From NCBI RefSeq assembly GCF_030730865.1, contig NZ_JAVALZ010000003.1, positions 310,001-374,000 on the forward strand: DNA of 64,000 nucleotides, given 5' to 3'. Positions 45,129 through 64,000 of this stretch are shown piece by piece (the first letter of the stretch is position 1; each line of letters opens with the position of its first letter). A program made the position numbers and the translations under genes. Source of the DNA: Uliginosibacterium sp. 31-16 (GTDB lineage Bacteria; Pseudomonadota; Gammaproteobacteria; Burkholderiales; Rhodocyclaceae). A model generated the notes under the pieces. The model was not told the origin of the DNA, searched no databases, and was given only the letters and a program-made list of their open reading frames with translations.

Positions 45129-45137
45129 TCAGACGAT

Positions 45138-45172
45138 GCCTGCAGAGCCGCTTGTGGCGGCCTTCTGCAGGC
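45138..45172. repeat. intergenic hairpin repeat, copy 4
   Basis: GCCTGCAGA-GCCGC-TTGTG-GCGGC-CT-TCTGCAGGC. Relative to the copy at 4738, one stem position has changed from A-T to C-G on both arms, which keeps the pairing. Confidence 0.8.
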
Positions 45173-45225
45173 AAGCATCGCGCTCACGCGCTACACTGGA
45201 GCGTCTTCACTGACTCGGCCCCAAG

Positions 45226-47120: not shown

Positions 47121-47123
47121 GAT

Positions 47124-49333: not shown

Positions 49334-49575
49334 GGCTTTCCGGTTGATGGCGGCAAAGCGCGCAGTCTACGGGGCTGGCGCGGAGAAGGGGAGCGCCGCG
49401 CCAACTTTTCCTGCGATCCCTGCGTGTAGGATTCGTCTTTGCCTGTTGATTCGGCCCGATTTTGCCTGCGCTTTGCATACCCCGGAAGAGTTCGCGCCGG
49501 GCGCCAGGCGAGGTGCGGTGTATCGAGGAATTTCGCGCTCCGTGGCATGCCCGATTGAACGCCCCGCAAGGCATG

Positions 49576-49610
49576 GCCTGCATAGCCGCACCTGGCAAGC
49601 CTTTTCAGGC
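49576..49610. repeat. intergenic hairpin repeat, copy 5
   Basis: GCCTGCATAGCCGC (from 49576) and CCTTTTCAGGC (to 49610) form partly paired arms like those of the copy at 45138. Confidence 0.55.
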
Positions 49611-49658
49611 AGCCTGCCGTGAGAATCACGCAGGGCGGGCCTGTCTGGGGTGTGAGCC

Positions 49659-49690
49659 TGAAGAGTGCCGCTGCAAGCGGCTCTCCGGGG
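49659..49690. repeat. intergenic hairpin repeat, copy 6
   Basis: CTGAAGAGT-GCCGC-TGCAA-GCGGC-TCTCC. The inner stem is intact and the outer one is degenerate. Confidence 0.55.
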
Positions 49691-49887
49691 CATGCCTTTG
49701 CGCCAGGAAAATCCAGCCCGGCCGGGCGTATTGCCCGCCTGCAATCCTTTCGGCTCCTGTTCCTTGACGCACGGAAAATGCTCAACCAGTATTGTCTGTG
49801 CATCCCGCTGGCGGAAACCCGGCGGAGATCACCGGCCCGCAGCACAGAATCGGGTCGTCAAACATCAACAATTCAGGAGACAAATCA

Positions 49888-51132
49888 ATGAATGCAAGAC
49901 GCATCGCGCTTGCCGCACTTGCGCTGGGGCTGAGCTCCAGCGCGTGGGCGGCTAACCGGCCTGCCGGCTACACCACGATCTGCACCGAAGGCAAAACCTG
50001 CACGGTCGCCGCCAACACCACGGTGGCTTACGGGCGCTCTGACAAATTCACCTACAAGGTTCTCTCTGGCAGTTTCGTTTGCAGCGAAGCCACTTTCGGC
50101 GCCGGCACCAAGGTCGCCGGCGGCACCAACGAATGCTCGACTCCCTCCGGAGGCAGCGGTTCGTCCAGCTCTTCAAGCTCCTCCAGCTCATCGAGCAGCA
50201 GCTCCGGCTCTTCATCTTCATCCAGCTCTTCGTCCAGTTCTTCCAGCTCCAGCAGTTCGTCCTCGTCCAGTTCCTCGGGCGGCACGACCACCAGCACGGT
50301 CACGCTGCCGGCCTGGCCGGGTTGCCCGGCCTACGTGAATGTCGGCGCAGCCAGCACCGTGCCGCTCACCGCCACCCATGTCGTGCCTGCCGGCACCACC
50401 TATGACGGCGGCGGCAAGCGCTTCCAGCTTTCCAACGGTGGGCAGGCAGAAGGCCAGCCGCCGGTGTTTCTGCTGGAAGAGGGCGCCTCGCTGCGCAACG
50501 TGGTGATCGGCAACCTGGCCGCTGACGGCGTGCACTGCAAGGGCAACTGCTCGGTCTACAACGTGTGGTGGGAAGACCTCGGCGAAGACGCCGCTACCGC
50601 ACTGGGTGGGCCAGGTACCACCATGCGCGTCGATTGCGGCGGTGCCTTCCTCGGCACCGACAAGACCTTCCAGCACAACGGCCAGGGCACGCTGCACATC
50701 ACCCGTTTCGTGGCAGACAACTGGAAGAGCAAGGGCGGCAAGTTCTATCGTTCCTGTGGCGACTGCACCGGCAACAAGGGCCCGCGCACCGTCATCATCG
50801 AGAACTCGCGCATCCACAACCACCAGACCATCGTGGGCGTGAACAGCAGCTACTCCAACGGCTCGCCGCGCGACACCGCCACCCTGCGCAATGTGCTGCT
50901 GCTGCGCTGGAATGGTGAGATCGAGGTGTGCCATACCTTCAAGGGCGTGGAGAAGGGCTCTGGCTCATCGAGTGATATCGGTTCCGAGTGGAACACCGCC
51001 ACCTGCAATCTCAGCGCCTCGGACGTGACCGCCATCGACAAGACTGGCGGCAGCAAGAAGACCGGCATCGCCCCCGGCAACGGGCCAGATCCGGCACCGG
51101 TGAAGCGCATCCAGGAAAGCTGGACCTACTGA
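49888..51132 (+). CDS. secreted pectate lyase, family PL3, with N-terminal module and long poly-Ser linker
   Basis: 414 residues: signal peptide ending SSAWA; a Cys module at about 22-84 homologous to that of pectate lyase 2 (GYTTICTEGKTCTVAANTT, then FTYKVLSGSFVC); a linker of nearly pure serine at about 90-134; then a full PL3 domain. The catalytic part shows AADGVHCKGNCSVYNVWWED, GEDAATALGG, DKTFQHNGQGTLHITRF and KFYRSCGDCTGNKGPRT. AGGAGACAAATCA precedes the ATG. A terminator follows. The closest relative in the window is pectate lyase 1, for the catalytic domain. Confidence 0.92.
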   Translation: MNARRIALAALALGLSSSAWAANRPAGYTTICTEGKTCTVAANTTVAYGRSDKFTYKVLSGSFVCSEATFGAGTKVAGGTNECSTPSGGSGSSSSSSSSSSSSSSSGSSSSSSSSSSSSSSSSSSSSSSSGGTTTSTVTLPAWPGCPAYVNVGAASTVPLTATHVVPAGTTYDGGGKRFQLSNGGQAEGQPPVFLLEEGASLRNVVIGNLAADGVHCKGNCSVYNVWWEDLGEDAATALGGPGTTMRVDCGGAFLGTDKTFQHNGQGTLHITRFVADNWKSKGGKFYRSCGDCTGNKGPRTVIIENSRIHNHQTIVGVNSSYSNGSPRDTATLRNVLLLRWNGEIEVCHTFKGVEKGSGSSSDIGSEWNTATCNLSASDVTAIDKTGGSKKTGIAPGNGPDPAPVKRIQESWTY

Positions 51133-51157
51133 TCGGGCTGCGTCCCTCTCAGACTCT

Positions 51158-51184
51158 AACGCCCGGCTTTCCGGGCGTTTTTTG
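51158..51184 (+). terminator. rho-independent terminator after pectate lyase 3
   Basis: AACGCCCGG-CTTT-CCGGGCGTT followed by TTTT, 25 nt after the stop. Confidence 0.92.
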
Positions 51185-51309
51185 TTTCCGGATCAATGCC
51201 GTCAATCGTGTCCCGCTGTCGGCGTTGTGTTTGAAAATGAAGGTAAAGGTATGCAGCCAGCGCTTGGCGCTGTGCTCTCATTACTCATTCTTTCCTGAAA
51301 GGGTTTCCC

Positions 51310-52335
51310 ATGTTTCGAACGACACCGGTCGCTTGCCTGAGCCTGATACTTGCCGCGCAGGTGGTGCATGCGGCGGAACCCGCCAGCCTGCCTGGATACA
51401 CCGAAGGTGCGCAGGTCATCCGTGTCACGCAGGACTCCGGGCAGATCGACGCGATTAGCGGCGTCATCTATTCGCAGTTGAAGGGCACGCGTTCGGTTCG
51501 CCAGTTGCGGATGGCATTGCTCGTGCCCCGTACGACCGATCTCAAACCTGCCATCGTGTATTTTCCGGGCGGCGGCTTCATCTCCGCGGAGCATGAGAAA
51601 TACATCGAAATGCGCATGGCCCTCGCAAAAGCCGGTTTTGTTGTCGCGGCCGTCGAATACCGCACGGTGCCGGACAAATTCCCCGCGCCGCTCGAGGACG
51701 CCAAAGCGGCTGTGCGTTACCTGCGTGAACACGCCGATGAATACGGCATCGACCCGGCGCGGATCGGCGCATTGGGTGATTCGGCGGGTGGCTATGTCGC
51801 CCAGATGCTCGGTACAACCAATGGCGAGCGGCGTTTCGACAAGGGCGTGTTCCTGGACAAGTCCTCGGACGTGCAGGCGGCGGTCACCTTGTATGGCATA
51901 TCGAATCTGCTGAATATCGGTGCCGGACTCCCGGATAACATCCAGAAAGTCCATGAGTCACCGGCTGTGACCGAGGCGCTGCTGGTGAATGGTCCGGCAT
52001 TTGCCCGTTTTCCGGGCGCAACGGTTCAGAGCGTTCCGGAGAAAGCGCTCGATGCGAGCCCCATGGGCCACATCGCCGGCAAGAAGCCGCCATTTCTGAT
52101 TTTCCATGGCAGTGCGGACACGCATGTCTCTCCCGTCCAGAGTGCCCAGCTCTACAAAGGCTTGCTCGCAGGAGGTAATCAAGCGGAGTACGTGCTCGTG
52201 GAAGGTGCAGGGCATGGCGATCTCACCTGGTTCCAGAAGCCCGTCATCGAACAGGTCGTCAGCTGGTTCCAGCGGACGCTCGGCAAGCCCATCAAAGGCA
52301 AGGGGCCTGCCGGGGACGCAAACGCCAATCTGTGA
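51310..52335 (+). CDS. secreted alpha/beta hydrolase (esterase)
   Basis: 341 residues with a signal peptide ending QVVHAAEP. The fold is that of hormone-sensitive-lipase/CE10-like esterases: oxyanion PAIVYFPGGGFIS, nucleophile IGALGDSAGGYVA, Asp in LIFHGSADTHVSP and His in VEGAGHGDLTW. Its place just downstream of a pectate lyase suggests a role in removing ester groups from pectin or hemicellulose, but this is inference. It has its own promoter space after the lyase terminator. Confidence 0.85.
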   Translation: MFRTTPVACLSLILAAQVVHAAEPASLPGYTEGAQVIRVTQDSGQIDAISGVIYSQLKGTRSVRQLRMALLVPRTTDLKPAIVYFPGGGFISAEHEKYIEMRMALAKAGFVVAAVEYRTVPDKFPAPLEDAKAAVRYLREHADEYGIDPARIGALGDSAGGYVAQMLGTTNGERRFDKGVFLDKSSDVQAAVTLYGISNLLNIGAGLPDNIQKVHESPAVTEALLVNGPAFARFPGATVQSVPEKALDASPMGHIAGKKPPFLIFHGSADTHVSPVQSAQLYKGLLAGGNQAEYVLVEGAGHGDLTWFQKPVIEQVVSWFQRTLGKPIKGKGPAGDANANL

Positions 52336-52466
52336 CCGGGAAGCCGGTTCTCCCGCATTCCCTGAGGTGGTGCTGTTGCGCTCTGTGGCGCGCAGGATCA
52401 GCCCTGATGGTAAGCCACACATTCCCGGGGCTATAGTGTATTTCAACGTACCCGTCGAGGAATGTC

Positions 52467-52910
52467 ATGCTCCATCCCCCTCATGGTGAATGCAAGGTGT
52501 ACTGGTGCGATCAGGCATGCTTCGCGGTGCTGCAGGGCAGTTTCAACCGCGAAGGCGTGCTGGTCATGACGGCTGCGATCCAGCAAGCCTGGCGTGACGC
52601 CGGCCAGCCCGGGCACTGGGCGCATGTCATGGATCTGCACCTGTGGCAGGGGGGCACCCAGAGCGGGTTCGCCGCTTCGCACGATCTGCTGGTATGGGCG
52701 ACCAGCCATGGCGCACACGCCATTCTCCGCATCCACACAGCTCGTTTTCTCGCCCGTGTGACTGAAAACCAGGGAGTGTTCAATGGCATCGAAGTCCCTG
52801 TTGTCACCCTCAACACGCGTGAACAAGCCTGGGAATGGCTCAGCGCAAACGGGTTTGAATGCGATCCCCGCAAATTGCTTGAAACCGTCACAAACGGCCC
52901 TGCCGCATAA
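52467..52910 (+). CDS. small soluble protein of unknown function
   Basis: 147 residues, no signal peptide, no recognised domain. Alternating strands and helices (CFAVLQGSFNREGVLVMTAA, HWAHVMDLHLWQGG, GAHAILRIHTARFLAR) recall the SpoIIAA/STAS-like fold of anti-sigma antagonist relatives. This is a shape impression only. The frame is well formed, with codon use like that of its neighbours. Confidence 0.62.
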   Translation: MLHPPHGECKVYWCDQACFAVLQGSFNREGVLVMTAAIQQAWRDAGQPGHWAHVMDLHLWQGGTQSGFAASHDLLVWATSHGAHAILRIHTARFLARVTENQGVFNGIEVPVVTLNTREQAWEWLSANGFECDPRKLLETVTNGPAA

Positions 52911-53249
52911 AAGGAGCAGGGTAGTAAAGCATTGAGGATCTGCAGGAATCCAACAGGCTGTTGAAAACAGCCCCTCCGCCTTCGGCGGCCTTTGAGCCGA
53001 TTTCGCCCTGCGCACTCGACCGCCGCTACCAGCCGCGCGCATGAACGATCTTCAGGCACACGGTCTGAACCAGGCCCGGCGGACGCGACTGAGCGGGCAG
53101 GCAGGCTGTAGAGGCGCGCCGGGAGCCGCTCTGGGGGCAGACAAAAAAGAGAGCCGCAAATGCGGCTCTCCAAACCCAGTCCGGAGGACTGCAGGAGCTG
53201 GCAGATCAAGTCCCGCCCCCGGCTTCTCCGGACCCGGCGCTCCGACGAG
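52911..53249. other. intergenic region with inverted repeats
   Basis: A 339-bp space. It holds a short palindrome CAGGCTGTTGAAAACAGCC-like segment near 52960, a CCGCCTTCGGCGG hairpin and a terminator (53144-53169). No gene supported. Confidence 0.5.
53144..53169 (-). terminator. rho-independent terminator after yjhP
   Basis: AGAGCCGCA / TGCGGCTCT (53150-53169) is followed on the minus strand by CTTTTTT. Confidence 0.85.
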
Positions 53250-53996
53250 CTAGCGCGCCATCAACGCGAACACGCCCCAGCCCAGGTACTCCCGCGTATA
53301 CGTTGCGTAGCGCACGGGTTCCGAGTCGAGCCGGGCGCGCACCTCGGCGACCATCTCGTCGGCGGGGTTGGCGTTCAGCCAGCGGCGCATGGTCAGCCAC
53401 TTCGCCGCCTCGTAGCGATCCCAGCCGTCCTGGTCCGCCAGCACCATTTCCACGACGTCGTAACCCAGCCGCTGGAATGACGCCAGCAGTTCCGGCAGCA
53501 GTAGAAAGTCCGCGCTCGAATGGGCCAGGCATCCCCTGGCGACCTCTTCGCTCGGTGGTGACTGGCGCCAGTAAGGCTCGCCGATGAGGATGGTCCCGCC
53601 GGGGCGCAGGCTGCGCGCCAGCAGCGCGATGCTGCCCGCCACACCGCCGGCGATCCACGTCGCGCCCACACAGGCCGCCACATCGACCTTTTCATCGGCG
53701 ACATAGCCGGCCGCATCGGCGTGGATGAAGCTGAGCCGGTCGGCGACCCCGAGTTCTTCCGCGCGGCACTTCGCCTGCCCGGTGAACAACAGGCTCATGT
53801 CGACGCCGATGCCGCTGACGCCGTGATCGCGCGCCCAGGTGCACAACATCTCACCCGAGCCACAGCCAAGGTCGAGCACCCGCGCGCCAGATACCAGCCG
53901 CAGGGCAGATCCCAGCGTGGCCAGTTTGTCGGGTGTGATCGGGTTATGGATGCGGTGAGCACTCTCGGTGATGTTGAAAATCCGTGGAATATCCAT
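53250..53996 (-). CDS. yjhP: YjhP-like SAM-dependent methyltransferase
   Basis: Class I methyltransferase of 248 residues. The SAM motif is VLDLGCGSGEMLCTWARDHG and the next acidic strand is GIGVDMSLLF. From memory it matches E. coli YjhP nearly block by block: MDIPRIFNITES, DVAACVGATWIAGG, GGTILIGEPYWRQ and MVLADQDGWDRYEAAKWLT. Substrate unknown. In E. coli yjhP lies with yjhX (toxin) and yjhQ (GNAT antitoxin). Here a yjhX homologue lies upstream on the same strand but no yjhQ. GAGAGGAG lies 8 nt before the ATG. Confidence 0.9.
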   Translation of the reverse strand: MDIPRIFNITESAHRIHNPITPDKLATLGSALRLVSGARVLDLGCGSGEMLCTWARDHGVSGIGVDMSLLFTGQAKCRAEELGVADRLSFIHADAAGYVADEKVDVAACVGATWIAGGVAGSIALLARSLRPGGTILIGEPYWRQSPPSEEVARGCLAHSSADFLLLPELLASFQRLGYDVVEMVLADQDGWDRYEAAKWLTMRRWLNANPADEMVAEVRARLDSEPVRYATYTREYLGWGVFALMAR

Positions 53997-54010
53997 TGCA
54001 GAAACTCCTC

Positions 54011-54109
54011 TCAGTCAGTCATGGTCAGGGTGTGCGGCAGCGAGCCGGCAACCGGGTGGATGGAGTCGGGCGCAAACAAGGCCGACATGGTCAGAACGAT
54101 GATCGTCAT
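54011..54109 (-). CDS. possible 32-residue peptide between yjhX and yjhP
   Basis: A frame encoding MTIIVLTMSALFAPDSI and a further 15 residues, ending 14 nt before the yjhP start. TTGGAG lies about 12 nt before its ATG. It occupies the place where yjhQ would be expected. It could be a remnant, a leader peptide or chance. Not recognised as any family. Confidence 0.3.
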   Translation of the reverse strand: MTIIVLTMSALFAPDSIHPVAGSLPHTLTMTD

Positions 54110-54169
54110 AGCTGTGTTTCTCCAAAGCATAGGAGCAACGGCCAGTGGATGACCGTTGCCCACGTCGGC

Positions 54170-54427
54170 TTATTGATTGTCGAGTTGCGCGCGCACCGCA
54201 CGCAGACCCGCCTTGTTGATCTGGTAGGGCTGCCCGTTCTTCGAACAGATGAGGCGTTTGCCGCGCAGCTTCTGGAAGACCGGAAGCGAGCATTCGGCGA
54301 GCAGCAAACCGTCGCGGGTATAGCAATCGACAGAAGAAATGTGACCCGATTCATCGCGGCAATGCACGATGCGGCCACCCTTGGCGAGGACATGCAGCGT
54401 CCTCTGCTCAGGCCTGGAAAGATTCAT
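54170..54427 (-). CDS. yjhX: YjhX-family toxin
   Basis: 85 residues. The sequence [18 protein letters not shown], then the segments [16 protein letters not shown] and [18 protein letters not shown], match E. coli YjhX (DUF2084) very closely from memory. YjhX has been described as a toxin whose partner is the GNAT protein YjhQ; its target is said to be topoisomerase I. A 30-codon longer frame upstream has no family counterpart. It is first in a unit with the 32-residue frame and yjhP. No antitoxin gene is visible. Confidence 0.9.
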
Positions 54428-54714
54428 GTTGGAAACGCTTTCAGCAATCAAAATGCATGACAGGCGACCGACCCGCCGGGCCGTCACCGATTCTTTTGCA
54501 TTGCGATAACTCACCACCCGGAAGCAGCGGGAGTTACCGGATCGCTACAATCTCCAACATATCCACAAACCTTTACGTTCGAAATCCGGCGACATTGCGC
54601 CTGCCGGAAGGGGCCGATTATAGGCCGGTAAGGCGCCCACGCAAACGCATCTGTGCGTGAGCGCTTCAGAGATATTCCTGGCGGAAGAAGAGAGTCTGGC
54701 CGCCTATCTGCGAT

Positions 54715-55251
54715 TCAATTTGCCGGGGCCGGCAGGTACTCGACCTGCGCCGAGAATTCTTTCTCGCCGCAGCTGAATTTGAGTACATCCGGAGGCGGGA
54801 AAACGGTGTTCGAGGCGAACATCCAGTAAGCGTGCTCGCCGTCAAAGAAACGCTGGCTGCTGGAGCCCACCAGAATCGCCACGGGGTTTTCCTCGTTGAA
54901 ATGCAGGTTGCTGGCACTCAGCGGACTGGCCGGAATTTCCTGCACGACATACATCAGCGTCATCGGAAGTTCCTCTGTTTTCAAATGAAAACCAAACCAG
55001 GCGCGTGTGGTCCAGGCGGAACTCTTTTCCAGCCACGCATCATGTACGACGCAATCCCCCTGATCGGCCGTATCAAACTTCAGCCGCGCCAGCAGTTGTT
55101 CGCGCTGCTGTGCCTGCTGGCTGGAGATGTTGGGGCTGGCGGATTCAAGTGTCGTCTCTTCGCGATAGCCCTTGAATGTAATGGCTGCCAGCCCGGCAAG
55201 CAGCAACAGCCCGGCAAGGGAGAGGCCGGCGCGTTTCAGGATTCGTTTCAT
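54715..55251 (-). CDS. unknown single-span membrane protein
   Basis: 178 residues from MKRILKRAG; a start 11 codons earlier is possible. One N-terminal membrane segment (LSLAGLLLLAGLAAITF) is followed by a soluble, probably periplasmic domain with two cysteines (GDCVVHDAW and KFSCGEKEF). No family recognised. Confidence 0.6.
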   Translation of the reverse strand: MKRILKRAGLSLAGLLLLAGLAAITFKGYREETTLESASPNISSQQAQQREQLLARLKFDTADQGDCVVHDAWLEKSSAWTTRAWFGFHLKTEELPMTLMYVVQEIPASPLSASNLHFNEENPVAILVGSSSQRFFDGEHAYWMFASNTVFPPPDVLKFSCGEKEFSAQVEYLPAPAN

Positions 55252-55496
55252 TGACAGTCTGCTTTCATGCTGCGCGAGATTCATGTGTATCCGGCCACTC
55301 CAACCAGCCACCAGCGCCGGACGGGGAGCTCCCGGAATCTTATGCGGTTTGATGGAAACGATTAAACCGTCAATCAAATAGACATCGCTCGTCCTGCGTG
55401 TCTCGACGTCGCAGGCGCTGCCAGCGCAGCCTCAGGCGATCTGACTGCCGGGGTAATCATTCGCGACAGGTTCAAATCATTCCGCCGCCTGGCCTT

Positions 55497-55531
55497 GCCT
55501 GAAGAGCCGCACCTGACGGACTTCTTCAGGC
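55497..55531. repeat. intergenic hairpin repeat, copy 7
   Basis: GCCTGAAGA (55497-55505) pairs with TCTTCAGGC (55523-55531) around a GCCGC-containing centre. Confidence 0.7.
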
Positions 55532-55580
55532 ACTGTGCCACAAGATGCCCGTCTAGATTAGCTCTTGGAGCGGCACGCCT

Positions 55581-55612
55581 GAAGAGGTCCGCTGGGCGCG
55601 GGGTTTCAGTGG
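55581..55612. repeat. intergenic hairpin repeat, copy 8 (degenerate)
   Basis: GCCTGAAGAGGTCCGCTGGG and a following GTTTCAG keep the left arm but have a weak right arm. Confidence 0.45.
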
Positions 55613-55709
55613 GCTGATACAAAATTTCGGAATGCAGGAACTGGCCCCGCGTCCCTTGCTGGCTGCTTGCGTGCAATGCCATCAAGTTCAGGGCAAGCAT
55701 CTCGATTGG

Positions 55710-55782
55710 CGTCATTCCGGCGAAAGCCGGAATCCAGCGCGGCCGCGCCGATCTCTGGGCTTTGGCATCCGCCGGGATGACG
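55710..55782. repeat. GTCATTCC-type dispersed palindromic element
   Basis: Outer arms CGTCATTCCGGCG and CGCCGGGATGACG pair with one mismatch over 73 bp. An inner hairpin TTCCGGC-GAAA-GCCGGAA is perfect. Elements of this look are common between genes in betaproteobacteria. Confidence 0.75.
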
Positions 55783-55795
55783 GCAAGGGACTAAC

Positions 55796-56098
55796 TCAGT
55801 GGCTTGTTCCCACGGGGCGCATTTTGATCAGGCGGGCCGGCCCGGCGCGGAAGGATGGATTTCTCGCCGCTGCAGCCTGCATGTGCTCCGTTTTGCCATG
55901 TGCTGCCAGCGCCTCCTCCGACGCCCATTGCTCGACGAGAATGAATTTGTTTTCATCCTCTGCATCGCTGAAAAGTTCGTATTGAATACAGCCCGGCTCC
56001 GCGAGTACCAGAGGGCGGAGCTTCTCGAAAGCTTCGATCTGAATATCGCGTTTGCCCGGCTGCACCTCGATCAATACCAGCAGATTGACTTCTTTCAT
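55796..56098 (-). CDS. antibiotic biosynthesis monooxygenase (ABM) domain protein
   Basis: 100 residues, a dimeric ferredoxin-like alpha/beta barrel. VNLLVLIEVQPGKRD, EPGCIQYELFSDAEDENKFI and LVEQWASEEALAAHGKTEHM are the typical ABM/YgiN layout. Such proteins act as quinol monooxygenases or stress proteins. The exact substrate is unknown. Confidence 0.88.
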   Translation of the reverse strand: MKEVNLLVLIEVQPGKRDIQIEAFEKLRPLVLAEPGCIQYELFSDAEDENKFILVEQWASEEALAAHGKTEHMQAAAARNPSFRAGPARLIKMRPVGTSH

Positions 56099-56272
56099 GA
56101 CTTTTCCAGTTTATTCAGGGTGGAGAGGAAACACGCGGGGCGGCCTTGCCGATACGAACAGTTTAAAAAAGGTAAAAGGAAAGACCTGTTCCATACCTTG
56201 AAGAGCTGCACTCGTCGGGCGTCTAAGGCATGGCTATCGGCTCAGGCAAGCGGAATATGGCTGGCCGGGAAG

Positions 56273-56310
56273 GCTGCCTGAAGACGGCCGCTGGGCACGG
56301 TTTTTTTGGG
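56273..56310. repeat. intergenic hairpin repeat, copy 9 (degenerate)
   Basis: GCCTGAAGACGGCCGCTGGG followed by a T-run. Left arm and core only. Confidence 0.4.
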
Positions 56311-56338
56311 AGCTAAAAGACCGGTTTATTTAAAATCA

Positions 56339-56364
56339 GGGGACAAAAGGCAAGACCTGCCCCC
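56339..56364. repeat. GGTCTTGCC repeat, copy 1
   Basis: GGGGACAAAAGGCAAGACCTGCCCCC. It is the reverse orientation of the copy at 60553. Confidence 0.75.
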
Positions 56365-56390
56365 AGCTTTCGTGCCCCCGGCCTTCGCTA

Positions 56391-56903
56391 TCAATTCGAC
56401 CCAGGTCCATTTAATTCGTCTTGAGTGTTGTGGTAGTTGCGTAATTGAAGATTAACATTTGCGATGGAGTAAAAAAACAATACAAGCCCGAGAATTATAG
56501 CTGGCCACTTCGCATCAAAAAAATTCAACGTGTTAATGGCGAAATAGAATAGTGCACATGTCTGACCTATTACCGCAAACTGAAGCCATGTCTGACCGCT
56601 ATACCACCACTTTGCAAACGCCTTGATGTTTTTGCTGGCAAGTCCATGTTGATGATGTCTGAATCTAACCAACGCGTTAAAAACAGCAGCCTGAAATACG
56701 AAGCAAACGGACAATACGATGCCTACGAACGTTGATTTTTCGGCAGCCAATTCAATGCTTTTGAAATCGGCTGTTGAAATATAGGCAACGCTGGTAATGG
56801 CGAGAAGGAATATTGCTGTGCTCCATACTGGAAGTTGCCATATTAAGTTATCAAAGTGTTTGTAGTCGCCACTGTAGCCTGGGTGATTTTCTGGATTTGT
56901 CAT
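56391..56903 (-). CDS. unknown four-helix membrane protein
   Basis: 170 residues from MTNPENHPGYSGDY. About four membrane segments: STAIFLLAITSVAYI, FVGIVLSVCFVFQAAVF, FAVIGQTCALFYFAI and PAIILGLVLFFYSIA. Base composition is clearly AT-rich. It lies between two copies of the GGTCTTGCC repeat, 56 bp from the palindromic copy. No family recognised; small membrane proteins like this occur beside defence genes, but this is only a hint. Confidence 0.7.
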   Translation of the reverse strand: MTNPENHPGYSGDYKHFDNLIWQLPVWSTAIFLLAITSVAYISTADFKSIELAAEKSTFVGIVLSVCFVFQAAVFNALVRFRHHQHGLASKNIKAFAKWWYSGQTWLQFAVIGQTCALFYFAINTLNFFDAKWPAIILGLVLFFYSIANVNLQLRNYHNTQDELNGPGSN

Positions 56904-56959
56904 GGAGGTTGCCTTTCGTGATGATGATTTTGATAGTAATTTCGCTGTTGAGAAAGACG

Positions 56960-57002
56960 GGGTCAGGTCTTGCCTTTTACGGCAAAAGGCAAGACCTGAC
57001 CC
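56960..57002. repeat. GGTCTTGCC repeat, copy 2 (perfect palindrome)
   Basis: GGGTCAGGTCTTGCCTTTT (56960-56978), loop ACGGC, then its exact reverse complement (56984-57002): a 19-pair stem. Confidence 0.9.
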
Positions 57003-57037
57003 GGCCCTCGCTGGGGCTTTACTTACGCCGCTAGCGT

Positions 57038-57346
57038 TTACTGGTTTCCTTTGGGCGATGGTGCCAACAGGCCTGCCAGCGCACCAACGGCGGCCGAGCC
57101 CAGCGCGATGATGCCCTCGGAAACATTGGAACCCGATGTGGCCGTGATCACCATTCCACCGATGACGGTGGATAGCACCGTCAGGCCCAGAAAGCCGACG
57201 ACCATGCGGTAAATCCATGGGTCCCACTGCAGCGGCGAGGCGACTGGCGTCAGCGTTGCCAGCAGATCCTGCTTGACCGTATCAGGAATGCCGGATTCGT
57301 CTGAAATCAGCGCTATGGCTTTGTCGATGGCAGCTTTCTGGTCCAT
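57038..57346 (-). CDS. small two-span membrane protein of unknown function
   Basis: 102 residues. The soluble N-terminal 35 are acidic (DKAIALISDESGIPDTVKQD). Two hydrophobic segments follow (MVVGFLGLTVLSTVIGGMVI and IIALGSAAVGALAGLLAPS). The layout is holin-like but no family is recognised. GGGGAG lies 9 nt before the ATG. It follows the 177-residue gene by 15 nt, so the two are co-transcribed. Confidence 0.72.
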   Translation of the reverse strand: MDQKAAIDKAIALISDESGIPDTVKQDLLATLTPVASPLQWDPWIYRMVVGFLGLTVLSTVIGGMVITATSGSNVSEGIIALGSAAVGALAGLLAPSPKGNQ

Positions 57347-57361
57347 TTTTGCACTCCCCTG

Positions 57362-57895
57362 TTAGCGATTGACGGTGATTTCCGGACGAAAATATTCCGC
57401 CGGAAAATCGATGCTGGTGATGACCTTCTTGTTCGCATCCAGGATCGATGCGTAGTAACGCCCGTTGATCGGTGTGGCTTTGTTTGCATGCGTGCGCCAG
57501 GTAAAAACGCCGCCGCCTTGCTGAGCCTTCCATTTGATCCCTGACTGAGCGGTTTGCCACTGCCCTAGCGTAATCCCCACGTCCATTGCCGGGTCGGTCA
57601 ACCAACCGTCGCGTCCCCAGCGCAGATACACCGGCAGTTTGCCCAGCGAGCGAAGATATTTCAGCCCGCTCTTGTTGATCTGGATATTCAGCCACAGATG
57701 CAAGCGCTTACCCTTCTGTAACACGGCCGGGTCAGACAGAACGCCGACGGGTTCCAGATTCATCACCGAGCGGGAAAACGAATAGTTCACCACCGACACC
57801 ATCGGTTCTGCCGCAGCCGTTAGATCGGCCAGCAGCAGACAGGCTGGGATCAGTAAAAACCGGAGCAGCGAGCGGATTGACGAGCAAGCTTTCAT
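57362..57895 (-). CDS. secreted protein of unknown function
   Basis: 177 residues with a signal peptide (FLLIPACLLLADLTAAAEP). The mature part looks like an immunoglobulin-type beta sandwich (GKRLHLWLNIQINKSG, LPVYLRWGRDGW, GGVFTWRTHANKATPINGRY). The layout of tryptophans recalls DUF2914-type domains, but I am not confident. It is first of a two-gene unit with the holin-like protein. Confidence 0.65.
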   Translation of the reverse strand: MKACSSIRSLLRFLLIPACLLLADLTAAAEPMVSVVNYSFSRSVMNLEPVGVLSDPAVLQKGKRLHLWLNIQINKSGLKYLRSLGKLPVYLRWGRDGWLTDPAMDVGITLGQWQTAQSGIKWKAQQGGGVFTWRTHANKATPINGRYYASILDANKKVITSIDFPAEYFRPEITVNR

Positions 57896-58147
57896 GAGCA
57901 GTGGCCCTGTAGCAAGTGCGATTTAACAACGTACGGGCGTTCGATAAGGCTCAAACCAGAAACAATGCACACGTTCATAAGAAAATAGAACTTGAATAGA
58001 ACCCGAGTCCCTGTAATCGGTAATGGTAAAAGAAAGATCTAATCCCGGCCTTTTCGCCAATGGCAAATAAGAAACACTCGGCATCTGAATCGTTTTGACG
58101 GAAATTAATCCGAGCTGGCCCGTTTTGTTACGAAGCTTTTCGCGTGG

Positions 58148-60457
58148 CTACTTGCAAATTTTCCGCGCCTCAGATACTAAGATATCCCCACAAGTCGCAG
58201 GCGCACTCAGAATACGACGTGCCCGCGCAATTTCTTTACGTACAGGAATCCAAACATTCCCATCGCCACGACTGTAGAGCATCAGTAGGCCATGCTGTTG
58301 TAGAAGTCGAATTGCATCTGGAACTAGTTGACGATCATTTAGATCAAGACCCCTATAAAGCGCTGACTCTGCACGCCCACTCAGGCTTTGGATAAATAAC
58401 TTGCGTAATATTGTAAAAACAAGCTTTTCTCCACGACTTAGATTTGAATTAAGTATTGCAGACTGGGTTTCCGACGAATCCGCAAATTTCTCATAACTAC
58501 ATCTATTGTCAAAACGTGAACTTGGCATATCTTCACGACAGGTTCGTCCGCGAACAAGAAGGAATATACAGCCTTGAAATTTTGGCAGAAAGCTAGAGTT
58601 GGCATCACTAGAAATTTCAATACACTCAAACAAGCAATCTCGAAAAATGAGATTGCTTAGATCCGTCTCGCCGCTTGGCAGTACCAGTGTGTAGTTCTCA
58701 AATATCTCACCGCTCACTACCGTTTCAGTGGCTAGCGGATGTGATGCCTCAACTGCAAGAGCAGCTAAATCAGCACGCAACGCACCGATTTCACCATTCG
58801 TTGCGGATGCTTGTAATGCAGCATCAATCTTTGAGGACGCAAGCTTTCTTTGTTCAAGTAAGTTCCGACTAACCCGAGTAATCGCTGTCTGCCCGGAGAA
58901 CGCAGAAGCTAACTGCATAGCCCCTTTCCATCCATCATCCTGGAGCAGTCCATATGGATTAACAACAAAATCGGTGATGTCTCTAGCCCGACAAACTTCG
59001 GCCAATTCAACATCTACGAATGTTCTTGAATCATCTTCATCTCTGTAAACACCGAGGCCAGGCAATCGCTGGAGCAAAAGGTTGGCTTGCTCATCCGGTT
59101 CAGACTCACAGATTTGGATATAAGAAGCACGAATCTGTTGCTGTGTAATTGGCCCCAGCCCATCGTTGGTTGATCGAGCAACCGTTGCGAGCCTCTCGAG
59201 AATTCGACGCAGAGTAATTCCGTCGAGACTCGGGCTGATTTTTGACTCTCGCTCAAATATACGATCAAGCAACAAATGCCAGCCGTCAGTCGAGTCAATA
59301 GACTGCAAAACATCGCCTAGCTCGTCCAGTAATCCTCTGGTGGCGATGTATGCCACCAGAAGTGGTCGAGTTGGTAGCCACGGTGGCAGCGTAAGCTCTT
59401 TGCCAGCAATTTGCTTAAGATAGCTAGCAATCTGCTTTCTGGTGAGTTCACCAACGGCAATAGTCTTGGTATTCGTTCGAATACCAAGAGCTGAAAGGCG
59501 CTCGTCTGGACTGCTAAAAAAGTGATCTCTTCCAGCAATTATGAATCCTGCTTCACGCGGTGTTTGTGCGATCAGTGCTCGCACTGCCTCCAAAGAGCGA
59601 CGTCGTGCTTCGCGGAGCTTGCTGCGCGCAGCTGAGACTCCTAGAGTAGTAATCTCATCAAACCCATCAAGGATTAATAACGCAAAGCCAGCGCGCCAAG
59701 CACTGACTAAACTATGGGGCTTATCAAAGCCTAATCGTCTAGCGTGTCTTTCAAGCACTTCAGATGGGTCGTCCTGCCCGGAATGCTCTCGAAGGTTTAG
59801 ATAAATTGGAAACTTTGGCGTCCCCCCACTTCGATATTTGTCACGCAACTGAAAATATAGTTGGCGCAAAGTCATGCTCTTGCCCGCACCGTAATCCCCG
59901 AGCAATGTGTAACTCTCACCATTACTTAGGCCAGAGGCAATGGCATGAACATCAAGCAGATCACCATTCGAAAGCAAGGTCAAGTCAAGAGGGATGTATG
60001 ATATTTTTGTTTTTAATTCTCCAGTTACCGGATCAGCGATACTCCCAAAAAAATGATTTTCGCGCTTCGAAAAATATTGCGGAACATCAACCAATGCTTG
60101 TTGAAATTGTGAAAATGAAACAGCCTTAACCTGTCCTTTTCCATACTGACGAACAGCCTCTCGTTGATCTGCGGTTGGTTCGTCTTGAGTAACAAACCAA
60201 CCAATCGACCCCTTCATTGACCTTTGGCGTTGTTGCTCAGTCATTAGACCAAACATTTTCTTTGTATCGTCCTTTGCTTTCTCTTCTCGCCTAGACCGCG
60301 TTGTTTCGACGTAATGGATTACATCGTCGGTCTCAAAAACACCATCACGCTCGCGACCATCGATCATGGCTGAACCATCAAATTGCGCTTGTGGCCATCG
60401 TGCTCTAGCTATTCTTCTGACCTCATCCTCAAAGAAAGAGTCTTCTTCAAAAGTCAT
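58148..60457 (-). CDS. NACHT-type STAND NTPase with nuclease-like N-terminus (candidate anti-phage sensor)
   Basis: 769 residues. Residues 8-65 resemble a restriction-endonuclase-like fold: acidic Glu/Asp near 8-12, RERDGVF with Asp38, then VIHYVETTRSRREEKAKDD with Glu51, the arrangement of a PD-(D/E)xK core although the usual Lys is Thr. A NACHT domain spans about 180-380: Walker A LLGDYGAGKSMTL (187-194) and Walker B LLILDGFDEIT (260-268) with the NACHT-type DGFDE. A helical region follows, then a pentapeptide-like strip (NLIFRDCLFECIEIS), and a helical, wHTH-like end (EKLVFTILRKLFIQSL). Known bacterial NACHT proteins defend against phage. The gene is AT-rich against its surroundings and bracketed by repeat copies, which fits transfer. 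Confidence 0.85.
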   Translation of the reverse strand: MTFEEDSFFEDEVRRIARARWPQAQFDGSAMIDGRERDGVFETDDVIHYVETTRSRREEKAKDDTKKMFGLMTEQQRQRSMKGSIGWFVTQDEPTADQREAVRQYGKGQVKAVSFSQFQQALVDVPQYFSKRENHFFGSIADPVTGELKTKISYIPLDLTLLSNGDLLDVHAIASGLSNGESYTLLGDYGAGKSMTLRQLYFQLRDKYRSGGTPKFPIYLNLREHSGQDDPSEVLERHARRLGFDKPHSLVSAWRAGFALLILDGFDEITTLGVSAARSKLREARRRSLEAVRALIAQTPREAGFIIAGRDHFFSSPDERLSALGIRTNTKTIAVGELTRKQIASYLKQIAGKELTLPPWLPTRPLLVAYIATRGLLDELGDVLQSIDSTDGWHLLLDRIFERESKISPSLDGITLRRILERLATVARSTNDGLGPITQQQIRASYIQICESEPDEQANLLLQRLPGLGVYRDEDDSRTFVDVELAEVCRARDITDFVVNPYGLLQDDGWKGAMQLASAFSGQTAITRVSRNLLEQRKLASSKIDAALQASATNGEIGALRADLAALAVEASHPLATETVVSGEIFENYTLVLPSGETDLSNLIFRDCLFECIEISSDANSSFLPKFQGCIFLLVRGRTCREDMPSSRFDNRCSYEKFADSSETQSAILNSNLSRGEKLVFTILRKLFIQSLSGRAESALYRGLDLNDRQLVPDAIRLLQQHGLLMLYSRGDGNVWIPVRKEIARARRILSAPATCGDILVSEARKICK

Positions 60458-60552
60458 GTAGTTTCATCCCTTCTCTTACAAGGTGCGCGAGTCTGTTAAT
60501 AGGGGGCGCAGACAGTCACCATCTGCGGAAATTTCAAAACAACGAGAAAACC

Positions 60553-60578
60553 GGGGTCAGGTCTTGCCTTTTGCCCCC
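60553..60578. repeat. GGTCTTGCC repeat, copy 3
   Basis: GGGGTCAGGTCTTGCCTTTTGCCCCC, between the NACHT gene and the NERD helicase. The left 20 bases equal those of the palindromic copy at 56959. Confidence 0.85.
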
Positions 60579-60590
60579 AATATAAAAACA

Positions 60591-62378
60591 TCAAACCCCA
60601 CTCCCCACCAAAACCAAGCGCTCCGTCGCCCTTGTCATCGCCACATACATCAACCTCGCCTCTTCCTCATCCTCAGAAGACAAAGCGCCTGCCCCCGGTA
60701 TCACCACCAGCGAGAACTCCAGCCCTTTGCTGCTGTGAAAGGGCAGCAGGCGCACGGTGTCTTGCGCGGAGTCGAAGCGGATATCGTCTTTCCAGGTGGC
60801 GGGGATACCGAGTTTGTTCAGCTCGGCACGCACGGCCTTGCAGGTGGGGTAATGCCGGTACAGCACAGCCATCTCGCGCCAAGGTGTGCCGGCGGCGTGC
60901 GCTTCCTTGAGGTGGCGGGCGATCCATTCGCCTTCATCCTCCACCTTGGGCAATTTGATCAGCAGTGGCGCGTCGCCATGCCGGCCGGCTGACATTGGCG
61001 CCAGGCGCGGCACGCCGTCTTCGTCGGCGTCGCTGGCGGTGAGGCATTCGGCGGCGAATTGCTTGGCGAAGTTGAGCACTTCGCTGGTGTTGCGGTAATT
61101 CACCTTGAGCACGGTGGTGCGGCCCTGCGCCTGGATGCCGACGCTCTTGAAGCTGAAGTTGCGCTTCTTGCCCGCGTCGTAAATGGATTGGGCGTCGTCG
61201 TAGAGCACCAGCAAGGCGTTGCTCGCTGGATCGACCATTTGCACGATGAGGCGCAGCCATTCGGGGCGGAAGTCGTGGCCTTCATCCACCAGCACGGCTT
61301 CGTATTGCCCGGCGGGGATCTGGCCGCGCGCGGCGGCGTCGATCACGGCTTGCACCTGCGCGGCGAAGAAGGCGTCCGCATCCTCGCCTTTGGGCGGCGA
61401 ATCGACGTGGTAGGTCTTGAGCTGGCTGGCGCACCAGCTGTGGAAGGAGCGCACATTCACCTTGTGCGCTACGCCCCGGCTTTTCATCCATTCTTCAAGG
61501 CGGGCGGCGAGCGCTTTGTTGTAGCAGAGCACGAGGATGGGCTTGGTGGCGGCGCGGGCGAGATGCTCGGCGCGGTAGCCGAGGATCAGCGTTTTGCCGG
61601 AGCCGGCCACGCCGTGAATCACGCGGTGGCCGTCGCCCAGACTGCGGGCGAGCTGCTCTTGCTGGAGGTCCATGACCTGCATGATGTCTGGCAGCGCGGC
61701 GGGCTCGGCTTCAGGCTCGGCCTCAACACCAAAGAGCGGGGCTTGCACGCCGATGCGCACTTCGGGAAAGAGCTGCCAGCGCACGCGATCAATCTGCGGC
61801 AGGCTCAAGAGGCAGGTAAAGCGCACGCGGAACATCTGCCACAGGCGCTCCTGAAAGGCCTCGGGCTCGACGGCTTCGGTCATTTCGTCGGAACAGATGA
61901 CGAGGTTTTCCGGGATCACCTCATTGAGCTGGCCGTCGTCGAACTGCTTGCGCGTCATGTGGCTGAACACCACGCCATATGCCCAGGGCAGGCGCAGCTT
62001 GCCTTGCTCGCGGCCGCTGCTGAAGGTGAGCTGCGGATCGCGCTGGAGGATGTTGGATACGGCCTGCGCGTAGTGCCGAGCCTGCTCCAGCGGGTTGAGC
62101 ACATGCTTCACGCCATTGGGCGTGAGGATGGCGGCATCGCTGCGCGTGATGGATTGCAGCGTATCGGGCTTCCAGTCTTTCACCTCAAGGATGAGGATGC
62201 CGCGCCGGGGATGCAGGATGATGAAATCGGGGTGATCGTTGCGCGCGCTGCTGAGCGCTACGTCGTACCAGCACAGGTAGTCGTCTTCGAGCTTGGCTTC
62301 GAGGCGCTGCGCCAAACGCCGCTCGCCGGCCTGCATGCGGCCGGCGCAAGTGCTATACGCTGGAATCAATGTTGCCAC
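60591..62378 (-). CDS. NERD nuclease-like domain/UvrD-type helicase fusion
   Basis: 595 residues. The N-terminal NERD domain (about 15-130) shows DHPDFIILHPRRGILILEVKDW, the nuclease-like D...ExK core. A superfamily 1 helicase follows: Walker A IHGVAGSGKTLILGYRA, Walker B VLVDEGHDFRPEW, motif III VLYDDAQSIYD, and LLPFHSSKGLEFSLVVIPG and YVAMTRATERLVLVG at the C-terminus. The helicase core is shorter than UvrD. It probably works on DNA ends or branched DNA; a defence role is suggested by context only. Base composition is like that of the host, unlike the NACHT gene next to it. Confidence 0.88.
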   Translation of the reverse strand: MATLIPAYSTCAGRMQAGERRLAQRLEAKLEDDYLCWYDVALSSARNDHPDFIILHPRRGILILEVKDWKPDTLQSITRSDAAILTPNGVKHVLNPLEQARHYAQAVSNILQRDPQLTFSSGREQGKLRLPWAYGVVFSHMTRKQFDDGQLNEVIPENLVICSDEMTEAVEPEAFQERLWQMFRVRFTCLLSLPQIDRVRWQLFPEVRIGVQAPLFGVEAEPEAEPAALPDIMQVMDLQQEQLARSLGDGHRVIHGVAGSGKTLILGYRAEHLARAATKPILVLCYNKALAARLEEWMKSRGVAHKVNVRSFHSWCASQLKTYHVDSPPKGEDADAFFAAQVQAVIDAAARGQIPAGQYEAVLVDEGHDFRPEWLRLIVQMVDPASNALLVLYDDAQSIYDAGKKRNFSFKSVGIQAQGRTTVLKVNYRNTSEVLNFAKQFAAECLTASDADEDGVPRLAPMSAGRHGDAPLLIKLPKVEDEGEWIARHLKEAHAAGTPWREMAVLYRHYPTCKAVRAELNKLGIPATWKDDIRFDSAQDTVRLLPFHSSKGLEFSLVVIPGAGALSSEDEEEARLMYVAMTRATERLVLVGSGV

Positions 62379-62733
62379 GCGTCGCCCCTTCGGTATTTAT
62401 CCGGGATTCTACGAGCCATGCCGTGTCACGGGGCGGCCAGAAAGACGATCTGGGTCAATCCTTACGGGATATTCCGGCGTGATCGTGAATTCCGTCACGA
62501 TCGACTGAGTGATGGCGATGCCATCCAGCTGGAAGAGCGGCGCCGCCCAGATTTTCCGCAAGGGTGGTGTGAGGGCGGGGGTGAGGGCGAGAGCGGGCCG
62601 TTGCCGGAGATGAAAATTTTCGGAGAGCGGCTGGTCTTAAGTTTCGGCTAAGTGAGCCTCGTTAAAGTGCTCTCCACGGACAGGCACACAGCCTGACCCG
62701 CTTCCCCTACATAAAAGAAACAGGAGTTTCATC
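62379..62733. other. intergenic region before the small secreted protein gene
   Basis: A 355-bp space with no supported gene. It contains an inverted repeat GATCGTGA-ATTCCG-TCACGATC (62481-62502) that could be an operator. Confidence 0.5.
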
Positions 62734-63027
62734 ATGAACAAGAATGCATCCATCATCGCTGCCGTGCTCGGCCTCGCCATCGTCTCTGCATCGGCCCAGG
62801 CGTCTGTCGCTGTTGAGCAGACCAAACAGGTCAGCAGCGGTTTGACGCAGGACCAGGTCATCCAGCGTCTTGGCAAGCCGGACAATGCACCGACCTGGCT
62901 GGATGGCAGCCAGTCTCTGGTGTATGAGCTGCGCAATGGCGACAAGTCTGGCTCGCGCGTCTATGTGAATCTTGGCCGCAACAAGACTGTTACCAGCGTC
63001 CAGTTCGGCGACGACGGCAGCAACTGA
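62734..63027 (+). CDS. small secreted protein, SmpA/BamE-like fold
   Basis: 97 residues with a signal peptide ending SASAQA. The mature part GLTQDQVIQRLGKPDNAP then SLVYELRNGDKSG and VYVNLGRNKTVTSVQFG resembles the SmpA/OmlA-type two-helix, three-strand fold, where a G-x-x-x-x-x-V-x-x-x-L-G-x-P motif is typical. No lipobox. CAGGAG lies 9 nt before the ATG. It is just upstream of a two-component system, as small periplasmic proteins often are. Confidence 0.75.
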   Translation: MNKNASIIAAVLGLAIVSASAQASVAVEQTKQVSSGLTQDQVIQRLGKPDNAPTWLDGSQSLVYELRNGDKSGSRVYVNLGRNKTVTSVQFGDDGSN

Positions 63028-63140
63028 GCGCTTGCGTGCGCGCCGTGGCAGTTGCCGCAGCGCTGCACGAGCACTTTCAGAACAGGACGGAGGCCTCATA
63101 ATGGGCGCTCCGTCCTTGTCGTTCAGGAAAGACCTCGGCC

Positions 63141-63800
63141 ATGCGCCTGCTGCTCGTTGAAGACGACCTGATGATTGGCGAATCCGTGCTGGACTTGCTG
63201 CGCGCCGAGGGCTATGCCGTCGATTGGGTGCGCACCGGGCAGACTGCCGATAGTGCGCTGATTACCGAAGAGTATGACCTTGTACTGCTTGATCTGGGCT
63301 TGCCCGGCAAAGACGGTCTGGACGTGCTGCGCGATCTGCGCAAGCGCAAGACGCGTACGCCGGTGCTGATCGCCACCGCACGCGATGCAGTGCCACAGCG
63401 CGTGCTCGGGCTGGATGCGGGGGCGGATGATTACATCGTCAAACCGTATGATCTTGAAGAGCTGCTCGCGCGTATCCGTGCTTTGCTCCGGCGCAGTGCG
63501 GGGCGGGCCGAGCCGGTTTATGAATACCAGAATGTGAGCATCAATCCGGTGACGCGGGAGGTCAGCGTCGACGGACAGGCCGTGCTGCTGTCTTCGCGCG
63601 AATGGGCCGTGCTGGAGCCGCTGCTGGCTCGTCCGGGCCTGATTCTGTCGCGTGCCCAGCTGGAAGAGAAGCTGTTCAGCTGGAAAGATGAAGTCAGCAG
63701 CAATGCTGTCGAGGTCTACATCCATGGCCTGCGCAAGAAGCTGGGGGCGCAGCTGATCCAGAACATCCGTGGCGTCGGCTACCTGATTCCCAAAGAGTGA
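63141..63800 (+). CDS. OmpR-family response regulator
   Basis: Transcription factor of 219 residues. The receiver domain has acidic pocket EDD (residues 7-9), phospho-acceptor Asp51 in LVLLDLGLPGKDG and Lys101 in YIVKPYDLEELLARI. The C-terminal winged helix includes SSREWAVLEPLLARPGLILS and VEVYIHGLRKKLG. It is close to the QseB/PmrA/TctD group. The partner kinase starts 9 nt downstream. Confidence 0.95.
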   Translation: MRLLLVEDDLMIGESVLDLLRAEGYAVDWVRTGQTADSALITEEYDLVLLDLGLPGKDGLDVLRDLRKRKTRTPVLIATARDAVPQRVLGLDAGADDYIVKPYDLEELLARIRALLRRSAGRAEPVYEYQNVSINPVTREVSVDGQAVLLSSREWAVLEPLLARPGLILSRAQLEEKLFSWKDEVSSNAVEVYIHGLRKKLGAQLIQNIRGVGYLIPKE

Positions 63801-63808
63801 GCAATTCC

Positions 63809-64000
63809 ATGACCTCCTTTTGTTCGGTGCGTTCGCGCCTGCTTTTCGTGGTTGGTTTCGGTGTCGTGGTCGCCACGCTCGCTCAGGCTGTCGTGGCGTA
63901 CAGGGTTGCGCTGACGGAGGTCGATACGATCTCCGACTTTCACATGATCGAAATGGCGCGGGCGGTGGGCCGCAGCATGCCGCAGACCATGACCCAGATT
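63809..64000 (+). CDS. sensor histidine kinase (partial, runs off the right edge)
   Basis: The first 64 residues only: MTSFCSVRSRLLFVVGFG, then a membrane segment (FVVGFGVVVATLAQAVVAYRVAL) and the start of a periplasmic loop (DTISDFHMIEMARAVGRSMP). This pattern and its position right after the response regulator fit the QseC/TctE-type kinase. The catalytic part is outside the window. Confidence 0.85.
   Translation, partial: MTSFCSVRSRLLFVVGFGVVVATLAQAVVAYRVALTEVDTISDFHMIEMARAVGRSMPQTMTQI

Follow-up and report, generated by a model that had tools for sequence, protein, structure and literature searches.

A NACHT protein with a predicted Mrr-type nuclease domain as a candidate single-gene, phage- and island-borne immune receptor

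Introduction

In STAND NTPases, sensing leads to NTP-driven oligomerization, which in turn activates an effector. The Avs (AVAST) STAND NTPases follow an effector-STAND-sensor logic, the same as we propose here for a protein of Uliginosibacterium sp. 31-16; to our knowledge, Avs proteins are not called NACHT, and our protein has no PADLOC match. In bNACHT25 and bNACHT32 (clade 6), a single protein joins an N-terminal PD-(D/E)XK nuclease, a central NACHT module, and a C-terminal sensor (PMC12169576), a layout that our protein is predicted to share. In bNACHT25, residue D48 of the nuclease is required for protection, and DNA is degraded upon activation (PMC12169576). Compared by description, the two proteins differ from the family studied here in having a helical NCH1 C terminus (PMC12169576) where our family has a pentapeptide-type region and a tail. 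STAND NTPases of P4 satellites with Mrr_cat or BpuSI_N effectors likewise pair a STAND module with a nuclease effector on phage-like mobile elements and, again by description, carry repeats at the C terminus, which are TPR in the TIR member (PMC9122126). A fusion of Mrr to NACHT has been noted (PMC1913061), and the validated systems of the DefensePredictor paper include some that contain domains of the PD-(D/E)XK and NACHT types.

Our literature search turned up nuclease-NACHT systems and STAND systems of prophages or satellites but, in the accessible portions of the papers, no description of this family; the main bacterial NACHT catalogue lay outside the search, and an earlier listing of the lineage is possible because the DefensePredictor systems, known by description only, share its domain types. 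An earlier sequence-only reading of this DNA had called the protein a candidate undescribed defense protein. Within the scope of our searches this holds for the family, which matches no PADLOC-DB or NCBIfam model, but not for the kind, since the combination of PD-(D/E)XK nuclease and NACHT is established by bNACHT25 and bNACHT32 (PMC12169576). The order of a restriction-endonuclease-like N terminus, NACHT, and a pentapeptide-type C terminus on one chain fits that of bacterial NACHT proteins, with presumptive roles to match, and the gene probably encodes a one-protein alarm that would cut DNA once a virus is sensed.

Results

Gene and domain architecture

The window, as we call the whole 64,000-nucleotide stretch analyzed (contig NZ_JAVALZ010000003.1, positions 310,001 to 374,000), holds the gene on its minus strand as a single intact ORF with an ATG start and 769 uninterrupted codons (58148-60457); homology to relatives spans residue 1 through residues 767 to 769. 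Its GC content (0.465) and GC3 (0.378) are both the lowest among the window's 51 non-overlapping mechanical ORFs that reach 150 aa, which bears out the AT-rich composition reported earlier. A promoter and terminator scan gave a result no better than shuffles. With the single protein as query, no PADLOC-DB 2.0.0 family matched at E up to 1 and no PDB sequence fell below E 0.19; no NCBIfam model came near any cut-off, and assignment of the protein to an NCBIfam entry was rejected on that ground. Among 63 family members, the 25 PADLOC families listed, out of 40, show weak matches only (best 7.1e-5), the commonest being mad8 (26 members, best 4.2e-4). The gene and its parts, in window coordinates, are as follows.

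58148..60457, minus strand: NACHT-nuclease gene, 769 aa, ATG start (Pfam NACHT; relatives matching full length)
60083..60457, minus strand: residues 1-125, Mrr-type restriction-endonuclease-like domain, predicted effector, with E10, D38, E51-x-T53, K60, D64, and K67 (column counts; hhalign with controls; Pfam on 74 N termini)
60278..60346, minus strand: predicted catalytic stretch D38 ... E51-x-T53 ... K60 (column counts; proposed precedent in PMC1913061)
59408..59935, minus strand: residues 175-350, NACHT NTPase, Walker A 187-194, Walker B 260-268 (Pfam PF05729; invariant residues)
58493..58771, minus strand: about residues 563-655 (limits approximate), pentapeptide-type region, probable sensor, inside the fastest-diverging part (family-level evidence)
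58208..58462, minus strand: residues 666-750, conserved C-terminal tail, possibly winged-helix (conserved columns)

The NACHT module is recognized by Pfam NACHT (PF05729) at residues 185-349 with an E-value of 3e-9 and a score of 37.4 bits, above the curated cut-off of 26.7; matches of this type occur in 59 of 63 family members (E up to 0.1). Together with the Mrr profile match described below, this supports the earlier claim that a nuclease-like segment and a NACHT NTPase share one chain, and the motif positions given then are correct (D38, E51, T53, GDYGAGKS at 187-194, LLILDGFDE at 260-268). Residue counts here and below refer to 76 aligned rows, comprising the window protein and 75 relatives. 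Loci with broken frames (L021, L052, L067, L080, L086, L097), loci that are partial or of unsure start (L040, L071, L093, L023, L057, L090), those taken as near-copies (L011, L012, L051, L065), and L016-L018, different NACHT proteins that match the query only in part, were left out. Across these rows G190, G192, K193, S194, D264, G265, D267, and E268 are invariant, as are Y128, R132, G138, and S139 between the nuclease and NACHT regions, which suggests a structural linker. No NCH-type match was found in the window protein in a Pfam scan at E up to 1, which may lack an NCH1 model. Two congeners (G005 and G007) each contain one borderline PF05729 match, belonging to another family than the window gene.

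Kinship of the N-terminal domain to Mrr-type nucleases

Comparison with nuclease-family profiles had been proposed alongside the sequence-only reading, and was run with hhalign. The N-terminal family profile matches a profile of 25 Mrr-type sequences with probabilities of 93.8 and 94.9 in two runs (E-value 4.6e-8 at 94.9); the reversed profile scores 0.1, and none of 200 column shuffles exceeds 1.8. D38 aligns with the motif II Asp, E51 with the Q, and T53 with the Lys of QxK; a gap lies near K60, which has no counterpart. The Mrr sequences were gathered from 30 loci with the NA-iREase1 model (minus L141 and, for want of a usable frame, L122, L130, L144, and L149), so the choice of profile is not independent of the weak Pfam match to that model, whereas the reversed and shuffled controls are independent of it.

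When 74 isolated N termini were scanned with Pfam (E up to 1), those families matched by more than one N terminus, among the 25 of 44 listed, were all restriction-endonuclease-type by name: NA-iREase1 in 8 (best 0.0062), Card1_endonuc in 5, Mrr_cat in 2 (best 1.6e-5), and pPIWI_RE_REase in 2. The remaining families listed were each matched by one N terminus and are mostly unrelated (e.g., Peptidase_M28 at 0.0016). For the window N terminus itself, the NA-iREase1 match (PF22722; E 0.071) scores 13.5 bits, below the cut-off of 27, and a search of the window's own genome with this model gave no matches. Searched against PDB sequences, the N-terminal profile returned only two tektin chains (E 0.37 and 0.67), so the Mrr link rests on the profile-profile comparison and the weak Pfam matches. 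By this profile evidence, the N-terminal segment is related to Mrr-type restriction endonucleases.

A conserved site lacking the motif III lysine

The acidic residues of the predicted site are retained almost throughout the family: D38 (motif II Asp) in all 76 rows, E51 (motif III acidic) in 75, and E10 in 75. Position 53, where ExK or QxK would have its lysine, is Thr in 60 rows, Ser in 15, Ala in one, and Lys in none; with Thr or Ser in 75 of 76 rows, the possibility that T53 is a private mutation of the window protein was rejected. K60, nine residues C-terminal of E51, is present in 74 rows, D64 in 70, and K67 in 70 (Arg in five more). All seven key residues occur together in 67 of the 76 rows when either Thr or Ser is accepted at position 53. 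With K60, D64, and K67 at i, i+4, and i+7, the three would sit on one face should this stretch be a helix.

A precedent for such an arrangement has been put forward for DUF1626, in which Thr is frequent in motif III, positively charged residues lie on the following helix, and the lysine has likely migrated to that helix past the third strand (PMC1913061). Migration of the lysine has been proposed, from sequence, for several PD-(D/E)XK families (PMC1913061), so the missing lysine at position 53 is compatible with membership of the superfamily. The D38-E51 spacing of 13 residues equals that between D33 and E46 of Hjc given in the same paper. DUF1626 differs from the window family in that no NACHT fusion of it is mentioned in the accessible part of PMC1913061. 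The family-wide Thr/Ser, the near-invariant K60, and the DUF1626 precedent together favor reading the altered motif as a shifted lysine rather than new chemistry; because another PD-(D/E)XK family has already been proposed to combine a motif III Thr with a migrated lysine, an active nuclease is likelier than a new activity. The suggestion that the changed motif signals a different effector activity is thus unsupported, Thr/Ser being a family trait paired with K60.

One family member (L062:9701-11938) has lost E10, E51, T53, K60, and D64 while keeping D38, and is perhaps a naturally dead version or has a poorly aligned N terminus. Another genome within the same taxonomic family has a locus (L003:1-3264, minus strand) that encodes a protein with ParA-like, Mrr_cat, NACHT, and pentapeptide parts, with nuclease, NACHT, and pentapeptide in the same order as in the window protein. 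This protein differs from the window family, with its ExT/S and K60, in having an ordinary ExK (ECK), a clear Mrr_cat match (9.4e-12), a ParA-like N terminus, and clear pentapeptide repeats; the architecture therefore occurs with a canonical site too.

A divergent pentapeptide-type region and a conserved tail

The C terminus had been described as pentapeptide-like, a view that holds at the level of the family but not of the single sequence, for which Pfam finds no pentapeptide match. Of 70 members, 13 match Pentapeptide_4 within the C-terminal 280 residues (best 0.0015). The profile of the family's C terminus, searched against PDB sequences, retrieves the pentapeptide proteins 2w7z (3.1e-5), 2xt4 (0.0068), and Qnr (0.013). 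It also retrieves the SV2C luminal domain (0.012), which we take to be a pentapeptide-type helix.

Mean identity to the window protein over the first 20 rows of alignment A3, themselves 35 to 69% identical to it, is 0.50 for residues 5-135, 0.50 for 175-480, 0.26 for 490-665, and 0.465 for 666-750. Residues 490-665 diverge faster than the nuclease, NACHT, and tail regions, as expected of a sensor. Matches of the tail to GntR, HTH_Crp_2, and SelB-wing are weak and confined to one or two members; residues 666-750 are possibly a winged helix.

Distribution among phages, plasmids, and bacterial genomes

Full-length relatives were found in Pseudomonas phage Haddon (44% identical; one record among 50,697 phage records) and on an Erwinia persicina plasmid (28% identical; one among 72,556 plasmid records). 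IMG/VR contributes 13 loci, 10 of which (L006-L015) cover most of the query. At least 79 loci, some of them broken or partial, lie in bacterial genome contigs (one genome per species, 84,980 species); this is a lower bound, as the search yielded at least 589 candidate stretches and 103 relatives, of which the best 80 were kept. In a tree of the 76 rows (quick search, SH-aLRT support only), 63 rows are assigned by record title to nine phyla, several of them being metagenome bins, and 13 have no group. The window gene falls in a clade of six (SH-aLRT 100) with phage Haddon, two IMG/VR contigs (L006 and L007), a Ralstonia contig, and a gammaproteobacterial bin, so that three of its five clade mates are viral. 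In Haddon, which has integrase and repressor genes, the gene is situated between integrase and endolysin; on the Mu-like contig L006 it adjoins a Mor-like gene (names read from translations).

Some relatives have distinctive surroundings. Long inverted repeats (72 and 61 nt, 87-88%) flank the NACHT gene of L006 (1129-1375 and 4234-4437) and differ in sequence from those of the window; none were found around the gene in the stretches searched of L005, L007, L019, and L020. In the nearest bacterial relative, from Ralstonia, an Mrr_cat nuclease with a topoisomerase zinc ribbon lies directly upstream (L019:7387-8349), and on the Erwinia plasmid an annotated pentapeptide-repeat protein (L004:8601-9176) lies upstream with one small ORF between.

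The gene is present in none of seven other genomes of the genus (G003 being 89% complete), and a vertically inherited core gene, which would have told against the sequence-only reading, was rejected on this basis. Of 101 related genomes, two carry it at E up to 0.001, namely its own and G042 (31% identity), and it occurs only in its own genome among 369 sampled across the class at E up to 1e-20. The earlier claim of horizontal transfer gains support from its absence in all seven congeners and from the congener G002, where the corresponding slot is occupied by another gene.

A variable slot without a recurrent partner gene

The surroundings of the gene in the window include the following.

55796..56098, minus strand: ABM-domain gene, left flank common to congener G002 (flank comparison)
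56339..56371, no strand: left arm of inverted repeat I1 (33 nt, 88% complementary; repeat search)
56960..57002, no strand: palindromic REP-like hairpin, core as in I1 (repeat search)
60546..60578, no strand: right arm of inverted repeat I1, bracketing the NACHT segment (repeat search; core four times genome-wide)
60591..62378, minus strand: upstream neighbor, NERD plus UvrD helicase, PADLOC model C3a187, accessory in the genus (Pfam, PADLOC)

About 1.5 kb separates the two flanks in G002, namely a 3' piece of the helicase (79% over 144 positions) and the ABM gene (matching at 84% over 325); their counterparts in the window stand about 4.5 kb from each other and enclose the NACHT segment. The slot of G002 (L117:9355-10641) holds a 428-aa ankyrin-repeat protein with a J-domain-like N terminus by eye, possibly another defense gene. 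With the same flanks enclosing an ankyrin gene in one genome and the NACHT segment in the other, the slot is variable.

Inverted repeats (33 nt, 88%; 22 nt, 100%) enclose the NACHT segment and three small genes. The latter (56391-57895) lie downstream on the same strand as the NACHT gene and have no Pfam family; 57362-57895 has no match among the seven other genomes of the genus. The 22-base repeat core, GGGTCAGGTCTTGCCTTTTGCC, has four copies in the whole genome (up to two mismatches), all at the NACHT segment. These repeats may mark an acquired segment or merely a repeat-rich spot; against the former, the core is a REP-like palindrome found somewhere in 13 of 101 related genomes, its own included, and a similar stretch lies, by eye, beside the helicase remnant in G002.

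The NERD-UvrD gene matches PADLOC model C3a187 at 1.9e-169 and may be a second, independent defense gene. In the genus it has a full copy in G005 (89%), a contig-end piece with a stop in G001, and a 46-residue piece in G002; the remaining four congeners have short helicase-motif matches only.

Across loci the immediate neighbors are mixed and defense genes scattered. Clustering of ORFs at least 80 aa long from the flanks of 84 loci (window 44001-64000 and 83 others) revealed no partner family recurring close to the NACHT gene; the largest cluster comprises seven loci at 0.15 to 8.3 kb. There are 145 nearest neighbor ORFs within 4 kb (not counting the window, L011, L012, L051, and L093), and all but the five longest, 140 in total, were scanned. 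Pfam found 118 families in them, with Phage_integrase in five, DEAD in three, ResIII in two, and the others in one each among the 25 listed. PADLOC (1e-20) found 55 families; the 25 listed, each in one member, include HerA, Cas1e, a type I restriction endonuclease, type II and III methyltransferases, and mad8. A partner gene belonging to the system was rejected, as no family recurs near the gene in the examined flanks, and we read the gene as a one-gene system for the same reason.

Discussion

We consider the gene to be a single-gene, phage- and island-borne NACHT (STAND) immune receptor with a nuclease effector, which, as part of this best explanation, is carried alone by phages, plasmids, and genomic islands; we put its probability at about two in three. 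The domain make-up, Mrr kinship, conserved residues, patchy distribution, presence in phages and on a plasmid, and lack of a recurrent partner in the examined flanks are computational observations. Beyond the domain assignment, we infer that the protein senses, oligomerizes, acts as a nuclease, and serves defense, and that K60 lies on a helix and has a role in the site. In the mechanism we propose, drawing on STAND biology and the bNACHT25 precedent, the C-terminal region would sense a product of phage infection, and the NACHT module would bind ATP and then oligomerize. The N-terminal Mrr-type nuclease domains would thereby be brought together and cut DNA, stopping the phage or killing the cell (abortive infection). 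The nuclease site would keep the acidic E10, D38, and E51 and take its lysine from K60 (with D64 and K67) in place of the ExK lysine.

That the N terminus is instead a catalytically dead restriction-endonuclease fold binding DNA or a partner, with the NACHT protein working via sequestration or recruitment of a host nuclease, seems to us somewhat unlikely. The ExK lysine is missing in 76 of 76 rows, the model most often matched by the N termini (8 of 74), if weakly, is one that Pfam names "inactive," one row (L062) lacks both E51 and K60, and lysine migration is a proposal from sequence, not from experiment. Yet D38, E51, E10, and K60 are kept in 74 to 76 of 76 rows, those with an assigned group spanning nine phyla, which would be unexpected of a dead domain, and the NA-iREase1 model also matches lysine-keeping nucleases, with the QxK/ExK Lys in the 25 sequences inspected (the search pattern itself required lysine and was misplaced in two of the 25, L126 and L143, the latter reading KCK). 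We also regard it as unlikely that the gene serves its mobile element, as an exclusion or element-versus-element factor giving immunity to related phages or plasmids or controlling induction of the carrier. Such a role would suit its occurrence in phage Haddon, in IMG/VR contigs, and on the Erwinia plasmid, and the viral majority among its clade mates; against it stand the loci from bacterial genome contigs, at least 79 in number and possibly including prophages, and its compatibility with defense, since the defense genes that prophages carry are directed mainly at other phages.

A STAND regulator with no part in immunity, switching transcription or a stress response through a DNA-binding winged helix in the tail, appears very improbable: the weak winged-helix matches (GntR, HTH_Crp_2, SelB-wing) and the want of a recurring partner gene in the examined flanks would agree with it, but the nuclease-type N terminus with its acidic residues kept, the patchy distribution, and the fast-diverging middle do not. 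A more elaborate idea, which we hold to be improbable, builds on the pentapeptide beta-helix fold, a DNA mimic that binds gyrase. The family would then be a separate, widespread lineage of phage-carried NLR-like receptors with a remodeled Mrr nuclease whose lysine sits on the following helix, the site possibly being complete only after oligomerization, and with a beta-helix that detects either a DNA-binding protein of the phage or an assault on gyrase.

On the preferred reading of a nuclease-armed NACHT immune receptor, the family raises the questions of whether a shifted lysine can still give an active immune nuclease and of which signals a pentapeptide-type region could detect. Phage Haddon has been propagated on P. 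aeruginosa PA14 (PMC11841053), which makes removal of the gene within the phage feasible. With rows assigned to nine phyla, this compact family would represent one-gene NLR-like receptors borne by phages and unmatched by the 2023 PADLOC catalogue.
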